Shown here: piece by piece, positions 1,837-10,169 of the stretch
How positions within the stretch are numbered: position 1 is the stretch's first letter
Layout: every line of letters begins with the position of its first letter
Source: Candidatus Cloacimonadota bacterium
Lineage (GTDB): Bacteria > Cloacimonadota > Cloacimonadia > JGIOTU-2 > B8-G9
Direction of reading: 5' to 3'
DNA length: 10,169 nucleotides
NCBI GenBank assembly: GCA_003647765.1
Contig: QMNM01000029.1
Span: 1 to 10,169, forward strand
Made by a program: the position numbers and the translations under genes
Notes under the pieces: generated by a model
Seen by the model: only the letters and a program-made list of their open reading frames with translations
The model's database searches: none
Told to the model about the DNA's origin: nothing

Positions 1837-1877
1837 AAAAAAAGCGTTCTAAAGAACGCTATATTATAGAACGCTTT
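1837..1877 (-). terminator. Rho-independent terminator of the SiaB-like gene, with two alternative stems
   Basis: Read on the minus strand, it lies about 40 nt after the stop codon at 1916. AGCGTTC (1849-1843 arm) pairs with GAACGCT (1860-1854) across a 4-nt loop and is followed at once by seven T residues (the A run 1837-1843). This is a textbook intrinsic terminator. The T-proximal arm can instead pair with a third arm: 1841-1851 and 1867-1877 are perfect 11-bp inverted repeats (AAAGCGTTCTA / TAGAACGCTTT). The two stems cannot form together. It closes the transcription unit before the TetR gene. Confidence 0.85.
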
Positions 1878-1915: not shown

Positions 1916-2485
1916 TCACAATATCTTGTTCCTTTTTTGAATATTAACAGATAACACAAATAATGAATGCTCATCATTTATAGAATGTATTTCATATTTG
2001 AATGTATTGTCAGATTTCCGAGCAATGTCAATTAATCCAATATTTCCTCCATAATTATTATCTCCTCGTGGCTGCTTGATTCGGTCTTTGTAAAATCGCT
2101 TCAATTTATCATCATCCATTTGGCTAATATAATCGCATCTTTCAATTAGTGCCGCAATTTTTCCTTTCTCTACTAAATTGCCTGATGTTATCATATAAAA
2201 ATCAGCATATTCACCTACAACAATGATTCCATATCCTATTTCTTTATCTTTACCGTACAAAATCAGTTTTTCAGCAGAATGACGACTAATATTTTGAGCC
2301 ATTTCAATGAAGATGGAAAAAACTCTCTTTGCAACATTTGATTTGCCTATTTCATGATATATCTTATTCTTAAGCATTTTAGTCATACTAACCAAAATAT
2401 CTTGAGAAAAAATTCCTTCAAATGCAAGTATAATTTTCTGAGACCTCATCTCTTTATAATAATCAAATAAATTTAACTTACCCAA
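1916..2485 (-). CDS. SiaB-family protein kinase-like protein (DUF6272)
   Basis: 189 residues, soluble, with no signal or membrane segment. The whole sequence follows the SiaB / DUF6272 family, a GHKL-type ATPase fold. N-terminal LFDYYKEMRSQKIILAFEG and the FSQDIL segment come first, then FSIFIEMAQNISRHSAEK (54-73) with the N-box-like E61 and N65. FYMITSGNLVEK (96-107) follows, then a helical region ISQMDDDKLKRFYKD (120-134). The glycine-rich GGNIGLIDIARKS (146-158) is the ATP-lid equivalent, and a strand FKYEIHSINDEHSLFVLSVNI closes the domain. In Pseudomonas SiaB phosphorylates SiaC, counteracting the PP2C phosphatase SiaA; the substrate here is unknown. The start is TTG at 2485, chosen because AGGAG lies 5 nt upstream and the conserved LFDYYKEM begins right after it. 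It is the last gene before the terminator at 1837-1877 and lies 405 bp after the phosphatase gene. Family call firm; activity inferred. Confidence 0.85.
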   Translation of the reverse strand: MGKLNLFDYYKEMRSQKIILAFEGIFSQDILVSMTKMLKNKIYHEIGKSNVAKRVFSIFIEMAQNISRHSAEKLILYGKDKEIGYGIIVVGEYADFYMITSGNLVEKGKIAALIERCDYISQMDDDKLKRFYKDRIKQPRGDNNYGGNIGLIDIARKSDNTFKYEIHSINDEHSLFVLSVNIQKRNKIL

Positions 2486-2496
2486 ATAAACTCCTC
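2483..2496 (-). promoter_or_regulatory. Strong Shine-Dalgarno sequence setting a TTG start
   Basis: The minus strand reads ATGAGGAG, five bases, then TTG GGT AAG. The AGGAG is optimally spaced for the TTG. The ATG overlapping the Shine-Dalgarno sequence is in another frame and stops after six codons. A poor start codon behind a strong ribosome site may hold expression below that of the partner genes. Confidence 0.65.
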
Positions 2497-2704
2497 ATAA
2501 AAAATATCGTGAATTTAACCATTTTATTCAAAAACTTCTTTTGTTCTATTGAGTGCATTGTAAAGTAAATTCTGATTGATAGACAGGTGAACTGAAAAGG
2601 AATTAAAAATAACTAATTATTCACCCCATTGAATAGAAAAACTTATCCAACTGGGCAAGAATATCTAATAAATTTCAAAATCCAAATTTCTAATGATAAA
2701 TAAC

Positions 2705-2729
2705 ACTTTCAAGAAAGTAATTGACTTTC
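2705..2729. repeat. Three-armed inverted repeat (ACTTTC / GAAAGT / ACTTTC)
   Basis: ACTTTC at 2705-2710, GAAAGT at 2713-2718 and ACTTTC at 2724-2729 lie within 25 bp. The middle arm can pair with either neighbour; the first pairing has a spacer of only 2 nt and the second a spacer of 5 nt. The stems are short, so RNA stability is uncertain. A symmetrical protein site is equally possible. Confidence 0.4.
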
Positions 2730-2742
2730 ATTTATAAAAGAA

Positions 2743-2758
2743 CTACGATGTATCGTAG
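2743..2758 (-). terminator. Possible terminator hairpin downstream of the phosphatase gene
   Basis: CTACGAT GT ATCGTAG is a perfect 7-bp inverted repeat, in practice a 6-bp stem with a 4-nt loop. On the minus strand it is followed by TTCTTTTATAAA, a weak T-rich tail. It lies about 130 nt after the phosphatase stop codon. If it works, the SiaB-like gene needs its own promoter. Confidence 0.45.
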
Positions 2759-2761
2759 AAG

Positions 2762-2838
2762 AGTGCTGATAAAAAATTAAAATTACTCAGTGTCCTTAAA
2801 TTCTACTCTGTGTCCTCTGTGGCTATTTTATTTGTGTT
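2762..2838 (+). repeat. Short interspersed MITE-like repeat, copy A (inverted relative to copy B at 4707-4791)
   Basis: 77 bp that align with the reverse complement of 4707-4791. There are about six substitutions and one 8-bp gap, placed between two GTG triplets where copy B has an extra TTTTTGTG-like segment. The core holds the phrases TTACTCAGTGTCC and CTCTGTGTCCTCTGTGG. Such ACTCTGTGTCCTCTGTGGC-type repeats are, in my recollection, common between genes in environmental bacteria. The outer ends of this copy have lost perfect terminal symmetry (AGTGCTGAT versus AACACTGAT). Confidence 0.8.
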
Positions 2839-2890
2839 TTTTCATGTAGTTTTGTGGATAAAGATTCTTTTGTGGTTGCTATACACTGAA

Positions 2891-4630
2891 TTATATTTTG
2901 ATGCCAATTACCGTAATATCGTCTCTTTGTTCTTCACTTCCTTGATGATAGTGCAGTTCAGATAGTAAAATCTCTTTTTGTTTGGCAAGTGTTAAATTAG
3001 CATTTGACTGTAAAAATTCTTTTAATCTTTTTGAACCATATTTTTTCCCTTCTGAATTGTTCTGGTCAGCAAATCCATCACTTGTTAAATAAATTATATC
3101 TCCGTGTTGAACATCAATATTTTTATTTGTGAATGTCCGTTTATTTTCTTTTTGTTTGCCTCCTACTGATTTACGGTCACCTTTGATTTCTACAAGTTTT
3201 GAATCTGTAAAATGATATAATGGTCGTTTAGCACCTGCAAAAATTATTTTCCCTATATCTTTACTAACTTTACATAAACATACATCCATTCCATCTGTTG
3301 TTTCTGCATTTTTATTTTCTTGCTTCAATATCATTCTAACGCTTTGGTGTAAATGTTCAATAATTGATGCTGGATCAAATACACGATTTTCATTTACGAT
3401 TTTATTTAACATTGTATTGCCTATAATAGACAAAAGAGCACCTGGAACACCATGACCTGTGCAGTCAACCACAGCAATAAATATATTTTCCTGTATTTGG
3501 CTAAACCAATAAAAATCTCCTGATACGATATCTTTTGGTTTGAAAATAACGAAATATTCATTGAACGCATTTGCAATCTTTTCATTAGGTGGCAGAATAG
3601 CCTGTTGAATTCTTTCCGCATATTTAATGCTACTCATTATATGCTGATTTTTCTGTTCTATAATATTTTTGGCATATTGAAGCTGTTTGTTTGCTCTCTT
3701 TTTTAAAAGATACCGATTATATGTCATAATAGATAACAGCAAAATTAGTACAATCCCACCAATATAGAATTTTTTCATAAGTTTTTGCCGATTCAATTCT
3801 AACTCTTTTATCGCTTGATCTCTCTTCAAAATTTCTATCTCTTTTGCCTTTTTCTCTGCCTCATATTTTATCTTCATCAATTCCAATTCCTTTATCGCCT
3901 TATCTCGTTTCAATACTTCTATCTCTTGATCCTTCTTTTTGGTCTCATGCTTTATCTGAGTCAACTGCAAACTCTGAACTGCCCTGTCTTTTTTCAATAC
4001 TTCCGTCTTTACCTTCTCTGCTTCATATTTCACTTGCATCTCTGCAATTCTATTACAAACATCTTCATTAAAAACAGTATCCTTTATCGCTGTGTACTTC
4101 TTATAATATTCCAATGCCATCTTATAGTTACCTGCATTAGAACAAACTTCCGAAAGATATAAATAATCATCCTTAACTTTTTCCTCTTCTATTCTTAATG
4201 CCTTTAAATAGTATTCTAATGCTTTTTCTTTATTACCTATATTATTGTAAAATATCCCAATGTTATTTAATGTCTTGATAATGCCTTCGTTATATTCCGT
4301 CTCTTGCTCAATCTTTAACGCTTTTAAATAATATTCTAATGCCTTATCATAATTATTCAAATGAGAATATCCTAAACCAACATTCTTTAATGCTGTAATC
4401 TCTGCTTTTTCATTATGCAATTTCCGTGATAACTTTAATGCAGAATTGCCATATTTAATGGACTGTTCTGGCGATTTATCCAAATAAGCAGATGATAACG
4501 CATTTAACACTTCAATTCTCTCTTTGCCAAAAACAGCCTTTAGTCGGATTTCCAAACTGTCAATCTGGCTCAATCCCAACAATCTATTAGCTATAATTGC
4601 TAAAAACAATAACAAAAATAATCTTCTCAT
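2891..4630 (-). CDS. TPR / coiled-coil / transmembrane PP2C-type (SpoIIE-like) serine phosphatase, SiaA-like role
   Basis: 579 residues. An N-terminal signal or anchor (1-20) is followed by a partial TPR (about 40-70) and clear TPRs at about 78-108, 118-149 and 156-185 (repeated YDKALEYYLKALKIE phrase). A charged coiled coil (about 195-286) is built of three 28-residue repeats. Next come a transmembrane helix (about 289-304), a second linker helix (310-345) and the phosphatase domain (about 346-579). The PPM/SpoIIE metal-binding motifs are present: KDIVSGDFYWF (D372), VVDCTGHGVPGAL (D389), TTDGMDV (D446), YLTSDGFADQ (D518) and RDDITVIGIK (D570, D571). If the N-terminal signal is cleaved or inserted, the TPRs face the periplasm and the phosphatase the cytoplasm. 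In the Sia pathway the PP2C enzyme dephosphorylates SiaC; TPR-PP2C fusions of this type are also frequent in FCB bacteria in other contexts. The ATG at 4630 has only a weak GGA upstream. It lies 163 bp after the diguanylate cyclase, the gap being filled by repeat copy B. Confidence 0.9.
   Translation of the reverse strand: MRRLFLLLFLAIIANRLLGLSQIDSLEIRLKAVFGKERIEVLNALSSAYLDKSPEQSIKYGNSALKLSRKLHNEKAEITALKNVGLGYSHLNNYDKALEYYLKALKIEQETEYNEGIIKTLNNIGIFYNNIGNKEKALEYYLKALRIEEEKVKDDYLYLSEVCSNAGNYKMALEYYKKYTAIKDTVFNEDVCNRIAEMQVKYEAEKVKTEVLKKDRAVQSLQLTQIKHETKKKDQEIEVLKRDKAIKELELMKIKYEAEKKAKEIEILKRDQAIKELELNRQKLMKKFYIGGIVLILLLSIMTYNRYLLKKRANKQLQYAKNIIEQKNQHIMSSIKYAERIQQAILPPNEKIANAFNEYFVIFKPKDIVSGDFYWFSQIQENIFIAVVDCTGHGVPGALLSIIGNTMLNKIVNENRVFDPASIIEHLHQSVRMILKQENKNAETTDGMDVCLCKVSKDIGKIIFAGAKRPLYHFTDSKLVEIKGDRKSVGGKQKENKRTFTNKNIDVQHGDIIYLTSDGFADQNNSEGKKYGSKRLKEFLQSNANLTLAKQKEILLSELHYHQGSEEQRDDITVIGIKI
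3785..4030 (-). repeat. Three tandem 28-codon coiled-coil repeats inside the phosphatase gene
   Basis: Residues 201-226, 227-254 and 255-282 are copies of one unit with the pattern KYEAEKK..EIE.LKRD.AIKELEL..I. The first copy is two residues shorter. A unit of 28 residues equals four heptads, so adding or losing a unit would lengthen the coiled coil without changing its register. The DNA copies are similar enough to suggest recent duplication. Confidence 0.75.
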
Positions 4631-4706
4631 AAGTCCATAAATCCAAAACGAATCTTTTCAGGAAAAATTGTTTTATATCATCCAATTCTTTAATTTAACG
4701 CAGGAA

Positions 4707-4791
4707 AACACTGATAAAATAGCCACAAAAACACAGAGGACACAGAGTAAAATTTAAGGACACTGAGTAATTTTAATTTTTTATCAGTGTT
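4707..4791. repeat. MITE-like 85-bp element, copy B, with 13-bp terminal inverted repeats
   Basis: AACACTGATAAAA at 4707-4719 and its exact reverse complement TTTTATCAGTGTT at 4779-4791 bound the element. The inside carries ACAGAGGACACAGAGT and AAGGACACTGAGT. No target-site duplication is obvious. It ends only two bases short of the stop codon of the diguanylate cyclase, so it lies in the transcript between cyclase and phosphatase, where the ends could form a 13-bp stem. A transposase is not present in the window. Copy A (2762-2838) is inverted with respect to it. Confidence 0.8.
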
Positions 4792-4793
4792 AT

Positions 4794-5570
4794 TCACTGT
4801 GCTATAATGACACAATTTTTCCCAATTTTTTTGCCCTTATAAAGAGCTATATCCGCTTTTTTTATTACCTCCTCAATATCCATTTCTATGTTATCATAAA
4901 CACTTACCCCAAATGTCATAGTAATTGATAATTTCTGTCCATTAAAGACATAAGAGCTATGTGCAATCTTCTCTCTTATTCTTTCTGATATGATTTTCCC
5001 TCCGTTTATATCTGTCTCTGGTAGAAGAAATAAAAATTCTTCACCTCCCCAACGGCTTATAGAATCCTGTTTTCTAACCATAGACATCATAAGTTTAGCT
5101 AATGTTACAAGTATAAAATCGCCACAGTCATGCCCATATTGATCATTAAACAATTTGAAATTATCAATATCCACCAAAACTATAGCAAAAGATCTGCTGT
5201 TTCTTTCAAAACGATTTTTCTCATACAATATCTTTTCCATCATATCTCTACGATTTGATAAATCAGTCAAAGGGTCTGTTCTGGCAATCAATTTTAATTG
5301 TTTATGCATTTCAATCAATTCTTTATTTTGCTTTTGTATTGACTCATTAGCTTTAAGTAATTTCTTCTGATATGTATCGCCAATTTTCGTAAGCTTAATC
5401 GTTTTTTTTAACAATTGTTCAAACTGTTTGCCTAATAAAAGATATTGACGGATTATATCATCTTTTGGAAGATTTTTATTGCTTAAAATTTCTTTGATTT
5501 GTCTTAATTGATCAAATTCGCTACTAAAAATTAAAGAAGTATTAAAGATATTTTCTCCTTTTTTTCCCAT
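4794..5570 (-). CDS. GGDEF diguanylate cyclase, SiaD-like
   Basis: 258 residues, cytosolic, about the length of Pseudomonas SiaD. Residues 1-40 are a short N-terminal region. Residues 41-95 form a helical stalk (QYLLLGKQFEQLLKKTIKL, then TKIGDTYQKKL) like the segment through which SiaD is bound by SiaC. The GGDEF domain runs from about 96 to 255: DPLTDLSNRR (99-108), VDIDNFKLFND (133-143) with D134 for metal, YGHDCGD (145-151) and the active-site loop RWGGEEF (173-179). The product-inhibition I-site RKQD (166-169) sits exactly five residues before GGEEF, so both catalysis (2 GTP to c-di-GMP) and feedback look intact. There is no sensor domain, which implies control by a partner protein. It starts 40 bp after the TamB-like stop codon, with no terminator between. 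The ATG at 5570 has a poor upstream ribosome site, and a strong AAAGGAG lies inside codons 4-6 instead. Confidence 0.93.
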   Translation of the reverse strand: MGKKGENIFNTSLIFSSEFDQLRQIKEILSNKNLPKDDIIRQYLLLGKQFEQLLKKTIKLTKIGDTYQKKLLKANESIQKQNKELIEMHKQLKLIARTDPLTDLSNRRDMMEKILYEKNRFERNSRSFAIVLVDIDNFKLFNDQYGHDCGDFILVTLAKLMMSMVRKQDSISRWGGEEFLFLLPETDINGGKIISERIREKIAHSSYVFNGQKLSITMTFGVSVYDNIEMDIEEVIKKADIALYKGKKIGKNCVIIAQ

Positions 5571-5610
5571 TTTTTACTCATTTCTTATGATATGGATAAA
5601 GGGTTCATTT

Positions 5611-8600
5611 CTAAAATCTGAATGTCTTTTGTAAAGATATCTCCTGTACATTTTCTTCTTCTGGTGAATATATATATTTATATCTCATTCTGAATCCTAA
5701 TGGTAGATCGTATTGAAATAAAATCTGATGAATAACTCCATATCTTTCTATATTATTTTCTTCTAATCCCTTTTGTAATAATGCAGAATAACTTACATAC
5801 CAGGAGTGAGTAATATATTTTCCCATACTTAATGATAAATTATTTAATACAATTTCTTTGCTTATCCTAGAAATTTCAGTATCCTGATTTTCTTGTTCCA
5901 TTGATTTGTATTTATCTTCTTCAGAATACAAAATACCACTTTTAAGTATAATATTTTCAACAAGACCTGTATTCAATTTAAAGAAATCCAGTCCTAACCA
6001 TCTTCTAAGTTTCGTTTCAACCGGATTAAGTAATGGATTAAACAATTTGTTATCTATACCTTGACCTGCGAATTTAATTGCTTCATCAAGATATAGTGAT
6101 TTTTTTTCTTCTTCTGATAATTGCTCAAAATCCTTTCCATAACGCATCTTAGAAAATATCTGGGCTGTAGTTTCACTATTGGGACTATCAGTCCGTAAAA
6201 CCAATTTGAAATTTCCATACTCAGTTTTTTGTATATCCTGTCCAACGCTCTCAGTGGTAGAATAAATATCTAAAAAAATAGTAGTACCGTCTGGCAACTT
6301 TTTTTCAAAATTAGCAATAATCTTAGGTCGTTTGCTGTATTGGTCAATTTTCATTTCCACTTTAACTACTTGAAACCGCTCTCCAAATAAAGAGATACTA
6401 CCAAAAGAGGACGAAAAAAATCCATTGACCAAAATCTTTTCCCCAGTTTTACCTTTCAAACTTAACCATGAATCTGGATTTATTTTAATATTCATCGGAT
6501 AAGTAGAATACCAGATGTTCTTTGCGAAAAATAAATTTAAATCTAAATTAATTCGTATAGGACTCCCCTTCTTCTTTTTCATTTTTTTGGGCGGATAAAT
6601 ACCATTTCCATTTTTAAAATAAATGTTGCCATAAAGCGTTAAACTATCTATAGGACCAAAAATCTTAAAATATTTATCCTCTCTACCTGTAAGTTTAGCA
6701 TTTATAATCCCATCTTTAAGCAAATATCCTGGATAATTAACAGATATACCTTTTTCACCTGTTCTGATTAAAATTGTGCCAAAGTTTAGAAAATCGGTCT
6801 TTATTTGTCTATTATGATATTCAAACTGATTTGTTATGTATATTTTATCATCACCCATTTTTCCCGAAATATTCTTTATAAAAACCTTTCCATCTTGTAT
6901 TGTAATATCTCCATCTATTTTAGTGATTGCTTGGGGTTGGTTCTTAATTTTCATTTTACCATTCTTTATCCTGATTTTCCCTTCTGCAATATTGATCTCT
7001 TTGTTTGGCGAATTGATTTTTAATCTTATATCTGTCTTACTACTTGCAGTTTCCAAATAGCCAATATAATTAGAAATTTCTTTTAGCATATCGCCTTGAT
7101 AAAATACTATCAAATCGCTATTTTTATTTGTAAATTCCTTTTTGAATAAATTATACGCATACTCTCCTTTTAATGTTAATTTATCTTTTCCTTTCTGTAA
7201 GTAAGCTTCTCTAATGTAAATAAAATTGCTATCTTGAAATATATTAATTTTGCCATTATCAAAAGAAATTTTGCCAAATTTTATGTCTTCACAAGAAAGA
7301 TTGAACAGAAGCGTTGGCTCAGAAATTTTTCCTATTACCAAACAGTCATAATCAATCTTTCCGGTTATATCTCCACTGGAAATAATATTTTCCATTCTTA
7401 TGCCATTATTCCATAGATGAAGATGCAAAGAGCTGTCTTGTAAAGAGACCTTACCATAACCAGCAATAATATCGTCTGTTGGATTATAAACTGTAAGAGT
7501 ATCAATCATAAATTCATCATTGTAGAATTTGAAATGAACCTTGGAATTAATGTTTTCAACTTTTTGATATTTCATCTGAGTAGCAATCAATCTGCCTTGT
7601 ATTTGCAACTTATCTTTTTTTGAGAAATCTACATCAGCATTAACAAAGCCATCCATTGGTTTGCCACCTAAAAGAAGAACACGCTGAATTTGTCCAATCA
7701 AAAGATTATTTATATTTAACTTTCCATGAAAATTGCCTTCAAATGTTTTATTTTTTGTATTTTTACCTGAAATTTTGTGGCTACCAATTTTACTCGGATA
7801 AGAAGGCAATTCCATTGTTAAATAAATATCATTATCTCTCTTCTCTTTATGCATTAGGCTCTTCATATTTATTCCTGTTTCCACTTGCCAATGATTTTGT
7901 GTCTCCTGTCCAAAAATATCAATAGAATATCCTTCACCATCCAATCTTAATTGTTCACTTTTTAATGAAAATTTGGATTTAGTTGTATCTGGCCAATGTT
8001 TTGTTTTTTGTATTTTTTTGGATAATTTTGTGGCTACCAGATCCTCAGGGTAATAATGCATTGCTAATAGTAATTTTCCATCAATTTTGCTTTTGCTATT
8101 ATTCTCAAAATCTATCTCTCCTTTACATTCCAAGTAATCTTCATAATGTAGATTAATATCTGTGTTAATAACAGGGTTGTAATATGCTAATAGTTTGCTT
8201 TCTTTATGGTAAATGTTTGCTATAGGAAAGGAGTTTGTTTTAATATCAACAGATAATTTAGGGTTATGTAATACATTCCTAACTGTGCCACTAATGAGAA
8301 AATAATTAGTTGATGGTTGATGGTTGATGGTTGATGGTTGATTATCAGACAAAGAAAAACTTAGGTTTTGTTGATAATAGTTCAAGTGGCAGTTAAATTT
8401 CGTATAGAATGAATCGTTAATAAATGATGCACTATACAGATTAGCTTTTATTTGATAATCTCGCCACTTGCCAGTAATTTTTGCAATCATATTCCCTGAG
8501 AGTTTACCTAATTTATGAGTTGTAATGAAATTATTTGCTCTAAATGTTAAATTTAAATAAGAGTTTTTGAAATCGTTTGGTTCAAGATTTATATTTCCAT

Positions 8601-9768
8601 TAAGTTTAATTTTGTTATTTAACAGCAAGAAATGGCTATTGTCAAATATCAGGTTGTTTTCAGCGAATGTAGAATTTAGCTTTATATTTTTCAGGATTAT
8701 ATTTTTATATTGAAGTGATGGAGTATGAGCAAAGAGTACAAACTTTGGCTTATTTACATTACCTCTGATTTTTACAATGAATTTGATTTTCCCAGTGATT
8801 TCTGGCAAAATATTATCTAATATAAAGTTATTGCTGATTATATCAATTTCTGGTTGGATTGGTGAAGATAAGACATTCTTGATTTTTCCACTGCAATTTA
8901 CTAAATTATCTAAAAAAGCAATCTCTCCCTTTTCAATTATTATGTCTCTGTTTTGACAGGATAATTTTACATCATTTAATGCTAAATTTTGCTTATTTAT
9001 TTTGCACAGTAATTTACTAATTTTTACAAAGCTATCACCTATAAAAAGATTATTATTTATCTCAATATTGCCATCAACAATGCCTTTTTCTATTTCAATC
9101 TTTTGAAAAACTGCTTTTGGTATTTCTACATTTTTTAGATTGGCTATTGCATTGTAATTTCTCTTATTCTCATAACTTCCTTTAATAGAAATGGTTCCAT
9201 TTGTTTTACTTTGCTTTGCTGAAAATAGGAATGTAATTTTATTCTTTATACTTTCGGATATGCAGTCAATTTTATCTATTTCTTGATAAAAGTTGTTATG
9301 TTCATCTTTCCATTTAATTTGTAATTTCCCATTAGTAATATATATATTTGGTTTAAGTTTATCAAGAATGTTAACCTTTTTATCCCCTTTTTTCTTATTT
9401 GGTAATGTAATTTTGGCTAAATCAATTTTAATATCTGGTGAGAATACACTAAACTTCTTGATAGACCCAACAAAATTTAAGTTTTTTAGAAGCAATTTAA
9501 TGGGATTATAATCAATATATATTTGTTTAGCAGAGAAGTAGAAGCTGTCATTTTTTTCTGATATTTTTATATCTGAAATCTGGATAAATTTTATATCTAA
9601 AATAAAAGAGCCAATTTCAATATCAGCATTTAGCTGCTTCCCAATACTGTTTGTCAGAATATTCTTAACATATTTATCAATAAGATGAGATTTTGATATG
9701 AATAATCCTAATAGAAATAAAATAATTAAGACAGCAGATATAAAAATTAACCATTTTTTTTTAGGCAT
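5611..9768 (-). CDS. TamB/AsmA-like translocation and assembly module protein (C-terminal DUF490)
   Basis: 1385 residues from the ATG at 9768. MPKKKW followed by a single hydrophobic helix (about 6-25) is an uncleaved inner-membrane anchor. The next segment (QLNADIEIGSFILDIKFIQISDIKI) is the AsmA/TamB N-terminal signature. The body is a very long run of amphipathic beta strands (alternating hydrophobic residues, many N, K and D), as expected for the beta-taco groove that crosses the periplasm and carries lipid or helps outer-membrane protein assembly. The last few hundred residues fit DUF490, ending in strand-like YGVIHQILFQYDLPLGFRMRYKYIY and a terminal Phe (TFRF). A lysine-rich patch (PPKKMKKKKG) lies in the C-terminal third. 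A TTG in the same frame at 9810 was rejected as start because it lies in a hairpin. A heptamer repeat interrupts the beta pattern near residues 477-487. No TamA/Omp85 partner is visible. The cyclase gene follows within 40 bp, probably in the same transcript. Confidence 0.88.
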   Translation of the reverse strand: MPKKKWLIFISAVLIILFLLGLFISKSHLIDKYVKNILTNSIGKQLNADIEIGSFILDIKFIQISDIKISEKNDSFYFSAKQIYIDYNPIKLLLKNLNFVGSIKKFSVFSPDIKIDLAKITLPNKKKGDKKVNILDKLKPNIYITNGKLQIKWKDEHNNFYQEIDKIDCISESIKNKITFLFSAKQSKTNGTISIKGSYENKRNYNAIANLKNVEIPKAVFQKIEIEKGIVDGNIEINNNLFIGDSFVKISKLLCKINKQNLALNDVKLSCQNRDIIIEKGEIAFLDNLVNCSGKIKNVLSSPIQPEIDIISNNFILDNILPEITGKIKFIVKIRGNVNKPKFVLFAHTPSLQYKNIILKNIKLNSTFAENNLIFDNSHFLLLNNKIKLNGNINLEPNDFKNSYLNLTFRANNFITTHKLGKLSGNMIAKITGKWRDYQIKANLYSASFINDSFYTKFNCHLNYYQQNLSFSLSDNQPSTINHQPSTNYFLISGTVRNVLHNPKLSVDIKTNSFPIANIYHKESKLLAYYNPVINTDINLHYEDYLECKGEIDFENNSKSKIDGKLLLAMHYYPEDLVATKLSKKIQKTKHWPDTTKSKFSLKSEQLRLDGEGYSIDIFGQETQNHWQVETGINMKSLMHKEKRDNDIYLTMELPSYPSKIGSHKISGKNTKNKTFEGNFHGKLNINNLLIGQIQRVLLLGGKPMDGFVNADVDFSKKDKLQIQGRLIATQMKYQKVENINSKVHFKFYNDEFMIDTLTVYNPTDDIIAGYGKVSLQDSSLHLHLWNNGIRMENIISSGDITGKIDYDCLVIGKISEPTLLFNLSCEDIKFGKISFDNGKINIFQDSNFIYIREAYLQKGKDKLTLKGEYAYNLFKKEFTNKNSDLIVFYQGDMLKEISNYIGYLETASSKTDIRLKINSPNKEINIAEGKIRIKNGKMKIKNQPQAITKIDGDITIQDGKVFIKNISGKMGDDKIYITNQFEYHNRQIKTDFLNFGTILIRTGEKGISVNYPGYLLKDGIINAKLTGREDKYFKIFGPIDSLTLYGNIYFKNGNGIYPPKKMKKKKGSPIRINLDLNLFFAKNIWYSTYPMNIKINPDSWLSLKGKTGEKILVNGFFSSSFGSISLFGERFQVVKVEMKIDQYSKRPKIIANFEKKLPDGTTIFLDIYSTTESVGQDIQKTEYGNFKLVLRTDSPNSETTAQIFSKMRYGKDFEQLSEEEKKSLYLDEAIKFAGQGIDNKLFNPLLNPVETKLRRWLGLDFFKLNTGLVENIILKSGILYSEEDKYKSMEQENQDTEISRISKEIVLNNLSLSMGKYITHSWYVSYSALLQKGLEENNIERYGVIHQILFQYDLPLGFRMRYKYIYSPEEENVQEISLQKTFRF
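8310..8342. repeat. Heptanucleotide tandem repeat (TTGATGG x4 plus partial) inside the TamB-like gene
   Basis: Four perfect, head-to-tail copies of TTGATGG (8310-8337) followed by TTGAT. On the coding strand this reads CATCAAC-type units giving QPSTINHQPST, a phrase unlike the surrounding beta-strand sequence. Because the unit is 7 bp, gain or loss of one copy shifts the frame. In this sequence the frame is open on both sides. Confidence 0.9.
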
Positions 9769-9780
9769 AATATTTAGTCC

Positions 9781-9821
9781 ACTAACCCGACTCGGGTTCA
9801 AAGAACTCAAGTCGGGTTAGT
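9781..9821. terminator. 41-bp near-perfect inverted repeat between sorting-tail gene and TamB-like gene
   Basis: 19-nt arms (9781-9799 and 9803-9821) with a 3-nt loop and two non-Watson-Crick positions, one of which is a G-U wobble in RNA. The outer 12 bp (ACTAACCCGACT / AGTCGGGTTAGT) are perfect. It begins one base past the tandem stop codons TAATAA of the right-hand gene. On the minus strand no T tract follows (GGACTAAAT), so it may be a weak terminator, an RNA-stabilising 3' hairpin or a processing site. The left arm also contains its own palindrome (AACCCGACTCGGGTT, 9784-9798), giving a competing fold. Confidence 0.6.
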
Positions 9822-9824
9822 TTA

Positions 9825-10169
9825 TTATTTCAAAAGCAAACATTTCTTCGTATCTATCACTTTATCATCTACTTTCAGACGATAAAAATATATGCCTGAA
9901 CAAACAGCTCTGTTATTATTATTCTTACCTTCCCAAATGACTTTATGATAACCTATGGATTTTCGTTCATTAACAATTGTTTTTACCAACTCTCCTTTGA
10001 TGTTATATATCTTTAATTCAACTTTACTGTCTTTTGGAATTGAGTATTGAATAGTAGTATTGGGGTTAAATGGATTGGGATAATTCTGATATAACATAAG
10101 TCTTGAGTGTGGAACCAATGTATTTCCAACTTCAGTTTGATTCTGATCAAAGTAATATGCTCCGATGTC
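9825..10169 (-). CDS. Secreted surface protein, C-terminal part with T9SS-type/FlgD-like sorting tail; runs off right edge
   Basis: 114 codons in the window, open to the right edge, so the true start lies outside. An internal TTG at 10118 is not the start. The sequence begins DIGAYYFDQ, the phrase that often ends right-handed beta-helix or Pmp-like repeat domains. A linker and then the C-terminal sorting domain follow: YQNYPNPFNP, TTIQYSIPKDSKVELKIYNIKGELV, then WEGKNNNNRAVCSGIYFYRL and the basic end KKCLLLK. This is the FlgD-like Ig fold used as type A sorting signal in FCB bacteria, expected to direct the protein through the outer membrane for surface attachment or release. Tandem stop codons TAATAA are followed directly by the 9781-9821 hairpin. 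Its relation to the TamB-like gene is only positional. Confidence 0.88.
   Translation of the reverse strand, partial: DIGAYYFDQNQTEVGNTLVPHSRLMLYQNYPNPFNPNTTIQYSIPKDSKVELKIYNIKGELVKTIVNERKSIGYHKVIWEGKNNNNRAVCSGIYFYRLKVDDKVIDTKKCLLLK

Follow-up and report, generated by a model that had tools for sequence, protein, structure and literature searches.

The closest described system is SiaABCD of Pseudomonas aeruginosa, in which SiaB phosphorylates SiaC at T68 and SiaA takes the phosphate off; SiaC without the phosphate binds the stalk of the diguanylate cyclase SiaD, which is thereby activated (PMC8457831, PMC7647112). Residue E61 of SiaB is the predicted catalytic residue (PMC7647112). Pseudomonas SiaD alone is an inactive pentamer, and in the complex its residues S82 and Q86 contact T68 of SiaC (PMC8457831). 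The carrier part is filled for other cyclases by the STAS proteins HsbA and BgrV, in the HsbA-HsbD and BgrV-BgrR switches, and DUF1987 proteins have been suggested to modulate adjacent proteins (PMC8457831). Our literature search found no treatment of c-di-GMP in the phylum Cloacimonadota.

The window, meaning the whole stretch of DNA analysed here, is an entire contig of 10,169 bp from a 1.97 Mb genome that lies in 360 contigs and is 88.8% complete. It carries a siaD-like, a siaA-like and a siaB-like gene in that order, all on the minus strand and with catalytic motifs intact in each, separated by gaps of 163 bp (siaD-siaA) and 405 bp (siaA-siaB). An earlier note on this DNA had described three families in one minus-strand cluster with the order D-A-B, and the ORFs were indeed found at those places, with matches to NF038262, NF038263, NF038266, DUF6272, SpoIIE and GGDEF (Table 1). 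The nearest solved structures by sequence were SiaD 7e6g, SiaA 6k4e and SiaB 6kko, all from P. aeruginosa, and the homology-based assignment of the three proteins as SiaD-, SiaA- and SiaB-like is not in doubt. The window shares with the Pseudomonas SiaABCD system a SiaB-family kinase, a PP2C domain and a stalk-GGDEF cyclase with an I-site and a docking motif. It differs in its D-A-B order, with no SiaC found in the window genome, in a TPR/coiled-coil sensor where the Pseudomonas SiaA has a HAMP-type module, in two more heptads from the docking motif to the GGDEF domain than in SiaD, and in SiaA and SiaD equivalog scores below the NCBIfam cut-offs. With SiaC absent from the cluster, the locus is best described as a Sia-derived module and not as a complete SiaABCD, and it probably works like SiaABCD. 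Beside the cluster, a gene for a 1399-aa TamB/YhdP/DUF748-like protein (window 5611-9810) stops some 40 bp short of the cyclase gene, and the two may be transcribed together. Searches for Rfam families and tRNAs gave no match in the window.

Table 1. Features of the Sia-derived locus, with window coordinates and the evidence for each.
Feature	Position	Strand	Evidence
Terminator-like hairpin behind siaB, then TTTTTT	1843..1860	-	hairpin search
SiaB-family (DUF6272) kinase, 189 aa	1916..2485	-	NF038262 9.1e-54; 6kko 3e-20
Terminator-like hairpin between siaA and siaB	2743..2758	-	hairpin search
Inverted copy of dispersed repeat, between siaA and siaB	2766..2821	.	56 nt, 98% complementary
SiaA-like TPR / coiled-coil / TM / PP2C phosphatase, 579 aa	2891..4630	-	profile and structure-sequence matches
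PP2C/SpoIIE catalytic domain of SiaA, residues 317-578	2897..3682	-	6k4e 1.7e-44; tree
Single transmembrane stretch of SiaA, about residues 285-307	3710..3778	-	hydropathy
Coiled coil of SiaA, about residues 200-285	3776..4033	-	direct repeat D1, sequence
Sensor region of SiaA with TPRs, about residues 40-190; prediction places it outside the inner membrane	4061..4513	-	TPR_12 1.7e-23
Dispersed genome repeat, copy between siaD and siaA	4709..4787	.	repeat search
SiaD-like diguanylate cyclase, 258 aa	4794..5570	-	GGDEF 1.1e-44; NF038266 5.8e-57
Active-site GGEEF, residues 175-179	5034..5048	-	sequence
I-site RKQD, residues 166-169	5064..5075	-	sequence; five residues before GGEEF
Putative SiaC-docking stalk, cyclase residues 14-85	5316..5531	-	stalk profile; phylum co-occurrence
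Putative docking motif IGDTYQ	5367..5384	-	alignments with SiaD I81-S82-D83-R84-Y85-Q86

The siaB-like ORF starts with TTG behind a GAGGAG Shine-Dalgarno-like sequence. Its product matched DUF6272 at 3.3e-39 in the profile search and also the SiaB profile NCBIfam NF038262, scoring 181.7 bits, above the cut-off of 85, with residues 6-182 on model positions 1-177 of 177; this was the search that the earlier note had named as a check of the family. Residues E61, N65 (N-box), G86, N103 and G150 are all intact, E61 and N65 being invariant across 94 SiaB sequences. A possible defect in the glycine box (GGNIG for GxGLG) was rejected, as N or S stands there in many SiaB proteins.

The PP2C domain of the SiaA-like protein aligned with 6k4e over 261 residues (1.7e-44), and the profile search matched the protein to SpoIIE at 1.7e-21. 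Against NF038263 (prot_phos_SiaA) it gave 5e-67 and 226.9 bits over residues 314-578 only, missing the cut-off of 700 bits. The domain was 57-66% identical to the PP2C domains of cousins from the same order and was sister in the tree to that of the SiaA of genome G001 (98/87). The N-termini of the cousins' SiaA proteins consist of REC-PAS-GAF-PAS, and other Sia phosphatases carry HAMP, 7TMR, propeller or CHASE sensors. Up to about residue 330 the window protein resembles the TPR-coiled-coil-TM-GGDEF proteins of its phylum, its nearest relatives there. Because the PP2C domain groups with the cousins while the TPR-coiled-coil-TM part resembles these cyclases, TPRs, coiled coil and a single transmembrane stretch are a domain swap for the sensor, with the switch core kept. 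The TPRs are predicted to face the periplasm, judging from one hydrophobic N-terminus and the one transmembrane stretch. The coiled coil holds an 84-nt tandem duplication (28 residues, four heptads; window 3793-3960).

Replacement of the usual sensor by TPRs and a coiled coil had been proposed in the earlier note, and it is supported by this sister grouping and by the cousins' different sensors. The note's wider description of a rebuilt phosphatase stands for the swap and falls for the architecture, which was considered as new and rejected: the arrangement is an ordinary one, given how common TPR-PP2C proteins are in Bacteroidota. Those Bacteroidota proteins (e.g., in G130, G138, G128 and G135) likewise hold a TPR N-terminus and SpoIIE/PP2C in one ORF, but the PP2C domains of four in the tree were placed elsewhere and full-length similarity to the window protein was 31-38%. 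Acquisition of the entire gene from Bacteroidota was rejected as well, since in the tree the PP2C domain of the window protein falls among those of its own order. The phylum's TPR-coiled-coil-TM-GGDEF cyclases (L158, L159, L163) have the same sensor module, but they combine sensor and GGDEF in one protein and have neither a stalk nor Sia partners.

The cyclase retains the GGD/EEF motif, the metal-binding aspartates and the I-site and keeps every invariant column of the cyclase alignment; GGEEF and the I-site had already been reported as intact. It scored 192.9 bits against NF038266 (diguan_SiaD) over residues 44-254, missing the cut-off of 290 bits. The description of the enzyme as simply sensor-less did not survive. 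Residues 14-85 form a conserved module without a Pfam match, and the N-terminus is a putative SiaC-docking stalk with its motif intact, a comparison that covers SiaD I81-Q86 because the alignment with solved SiaD begins at residue 65, on the C-terminal side of the distal SiaC-binding motif S50/Q54. The AlphaFold2 model (pLDDT 89) has a 62-residue helix that runs into the GGDEF domain. No PDB chain covered more of the model than SiaD 7e6g (243 residues, Z 26.4), whose rmsd of 13.1 is caused by the stalk; on the GGDEF domain alone, other cyclases match as well as 7e6g. The window GGDEF domain was 59-66% identical to those of the phylum's TPR-coiled-coil-TM-GGDEF cyclases, as against 37% to the stalk cyclase of G001, and grouped with the former in the tree (99/100), and the window stalk was closest to a stand-alone stalk of genome G013 (47% identical). 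A one-piece TPR cyclase may have been split, the phosphatase receiving its sensor and the stalk its catalytic domain. We offer this as a suggestion only, because the same GGDEF clade also includes stalk cyclases of Acidobacteriota and Aminicenantes.

The nearest genomes available for comparison were from the same order, none of them from the window's own family. One of these, G001 (L036), has the genes D-A-B-C and thus shares with the window the D-A-B order, the sister PP2C and a stalk cyclase; it differs in having SiaC and in a REC-PAS-GAF-PAS SiaA with a fused degenerate GGDEF domain. Window D-A-B is therefore a known arrangement minus the last gene, and the linkage of the three genes is real, which supports the earlier proposal that their products form one pathway. 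The SiaA-type PP2C-GGDEF fusion of G001 (L036:3598-6606) has the degenerate active site YGDEIF, and the separate stalk cyclase lies adjacent. Genomes G013 and G002 (L034, L035), whose PP2C domains are 57-66% and stalks 42-47% identical to the window's, differ in that their A-B-C genes precede one for a stand-alone stalk protein that has 153-156 aa and no output domain (L034:982-1452, L035:7595-8056). The neighbourhood comparison that the earlier note had suggested thus found the Sia genes linked in related genomes.

We investigated the distribution of the stalk with a profile grown from the window stalk alone, which matched 80 of 5977 ORFs in the retrieved loci. All matches except the window's own were in SiaC-bearing loci, almost always adjoining siaC. 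Across 124 phylum genomes the stalk was found once in each of the 18 that are SiaC-positive, eight of which had contributed nothing to the profile, and among the 106 SiaC-negative genomes only in the window genome (3e-26) and as one marginal match (8e-4). Within the motif, [IVL]-[SG]-D-x-x-Q, the glutamine was present in 63 of the 73 sequences in which the motif could be placed, and the aspartate, which is part of the search pattern, in 73 of 73. In relatives the stalk is followed by GGDEF, a class III cyclase (PF00211), HisKA/HATPase, a hybrid kinase-REC-Hpt, or nothing.

Counted from the aspartate of the motif, the DxLT aspartate that opens the GGDEF domain lies 20 residues further on in P. 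aeruginosa and 27, 34, 41 or 48 elsewhere. This spacing equals 20 + 7n in all 40 cyclases, the window's 34 being 20 + 14, although most of the cyclases with spacing 48 are close Methylobacterium relatives, so that independent support amounts to about five length classes. An apparent exception, L102, proved to be produced by the regular expression and was rejected; the spacing there is in fact 48. In those histidine kinases whose H-box was found, the distance from the motif to the phospho-accepting histidine was 36, 43 or 50, again in steps of 7, and the histidine kinase of L059 had a spacing of 15 with an unsure motif. The rule was drawn from GGDEF cyclases and histidine kinases. Heptad-phased linkers are known generally in other cyclases and kinases, and spacing in steps of seven residues fits a signal that passes along a continuous coiled coil.

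In nine loci SiaC has as its neighbour a stalk-bearing class III adenylate/guanylate cyclase (L037:7516-8505, L038:9021-9992, L041:1405-2373, L048:6340-7317, L050:6985-7974, L073:1840-3294, L098:8986-10251, L109:7509-8552 and L118:8912-10393), which suggests SiaC switches that would govern cAMP or cGMP. Several Acidobacteriota loci (L057, L081, L114, L122) have two or three stalk proteins around a single SiaC. In L057, from an Acidobacteria genome, a hybrid kinase (5291-7090), a diguanylate cyclase (7147-7917) and a histidine kinase (8998-9939) bear stalks round one SiaB-SiaC pair, and one SiaC may serve several clients there. A literature search, mostly without subscription papers, found no link between SiaC and either class III cyclases or histidine kinases, nor any docking stalk common to the two. 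We hold it an evenly balanced proposition that the cyclase N-terminus is an unnamed portable docking domain, coupling SiaC to many coiled-coil enzymes through heptad-quantized linkers, with diguanylate cyclases, class III adenylate/guanylate cyclases, histidine kinases, hybrid kinases and stand-alone adaptors as its clients, and that in the window SiaC and client are genetically decoupled, SiaC being encoded elsewhere. The portable stalk is a more general result than the window's variant of the Sia system.

The Pseudomonas switch that the earlier note had cited acts through SiaC; in the window the kinase, phosphatase and cyclase were confirmed, and SiaC was found in neither the contig nor the genome. 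PF09345 (SiaC, DUF1987) is present in 18 of the 124 phylum genomes, the window genome not among them, and no SiaC was recovered from this 88.8% complete genome with PF09345, at relaxed thresholds or with a profile from the 18 cousins. Six-frame profile searches and tblastn of the window, intergenic gaps included, found no SiaC or SiaC remnant. One strong tblastn match was rejected as a remnant because it matches the SiaB half of a SiaB-SiaC fusion; this fusion is a single 316-aa protein in a Desulfatirhabdium MAG (L094:5007-5957). SiaC was in the same locus in 77 of 80 GTDB SiaB loci, or 77 of 78 where the contig extends past siaB. Of the three loci without it, two end at or just behind siaB. 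The third, L128 from the Cytophagales genome G124, has no SiaC adjacent to SiaB and 11 SiaC matches elsewhere in the genome; unlinked SiaC therefore does occur. SiaB adjoins SiaC in all 18 SiaC-positive phylum genomes; among SiaB loci with complete flanks, only that of the window comes from a genome in which no SiaC was found.

We rate at somewhat better than even the explanation that the locus encodes a Sia-type partner switch on a diguanylate cyclase, with a SiaC encoded outside the cluster in an unassembled or unbinned part of the genome; the weights given to this explanation and to three rivals are judgement and were not computed. A TPR/coiled-coil sensor across the inner membrane would set the activity of the PP2C phosphatase, which together with the SiaB kinase would determine whether SiaC is phosphorylated. 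In its unphosphorylated form SiaC would dock on the cyclase stalk and straighten it into a parallel coiled coil, turning on c-di-GMP synthesis, and the I-site would limit the enzyme by product inhibition. The direction of control is presumed from homology with Pseudomonas, and the SiaC step is proposed because the docking motif is intact and stalk and SiaC co-occur. That the three genes are intact in a family so far diverged from its cousins speaks for continued selection and hence for a SiaC. Against an uncaptured gene, random incompleteness of 11% alone makes it unlikely that SiaC was missed, and the same-locus SiaC in 77 of 78 scorable SiaB loci counts against its being encoded elsewhere.

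A contig misjoined just downstream of siaB, with siaC following siaB in the organism on an unbinned piece, would be in keeping with the fragmented state of the assembly (360 contigs, 88.8% complete) and with the position of siaC directly 3' of siaB in nearly all relatives. The well-formed terminator-like hairpin behind siaB, as at a real gene end, speaks against a misjoin, which we consider highly improbable. A switch without SiaC, in which SiaA and SiaB act on another carrier such as a STAS protein or directly on the stalk, would explain why kinase, phosphatase and stalk cyclase are conserved in a genome that shows no SiaC, and HsbA and BgrV, STAS proteins that work with other cyclases, are a precedent for another carrier (PMC8457831). 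The stalk motif, however, is the one that serves SiaC, and the compared genomes gave no example of a switch lacking it; we judge such a switch improbable.

The intergenic gaps bear on a third rival. A dispersed repeat of about 80 bp, with the ends AACACTGATAAAA and TTTTATCAGTGTT and 34 matches in the genome, flanks siaA and looks like a MITE or REP-type element. SiaC may have been truly and recently lost, perhaps through recombination between these copies, a rather unlikely course of events in which the cyclase would be uncoupled, by analogy with the mostly inactive lone SiaD oligomer, and siaA and siaB would be relics that have yet to decay. Loss would agree with the absence of SiaC from contig and genome, with the repeat copies in both gaps and their 34 genome matches, and with the inactive pentamer of lone Pseudomonas SiaD (PMC8457831). 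The three ORFs with their catalytic and docking residues intact argue against it, as do the lack of a SiaC remnant in the six-frame search of the window and the incompleteness of the genome. A single D-A-B transcript is doubtful, because the gaps hold repeats and a terminator-like hairpin, and this counts against the favoured explanation of one partner switch. Promoter-like sites in the window were no commoner than in shuffles.

The missing SiaC makes this locus a clean test of whether a Sia-type switch runs without its carrier. The stalk profile provides a sequence handle to find what any SiaC controls, and it leads to the prediction that the target of many SiaC proteins is a cAMP/cGMP cyclase or a histidine kinase instead of c-di-GMP synthesis. 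For the Cloacimonadota, a Sia-type phosphorylation switch exists in the phylum, and its sensor is exchangeable while the switch core stays.
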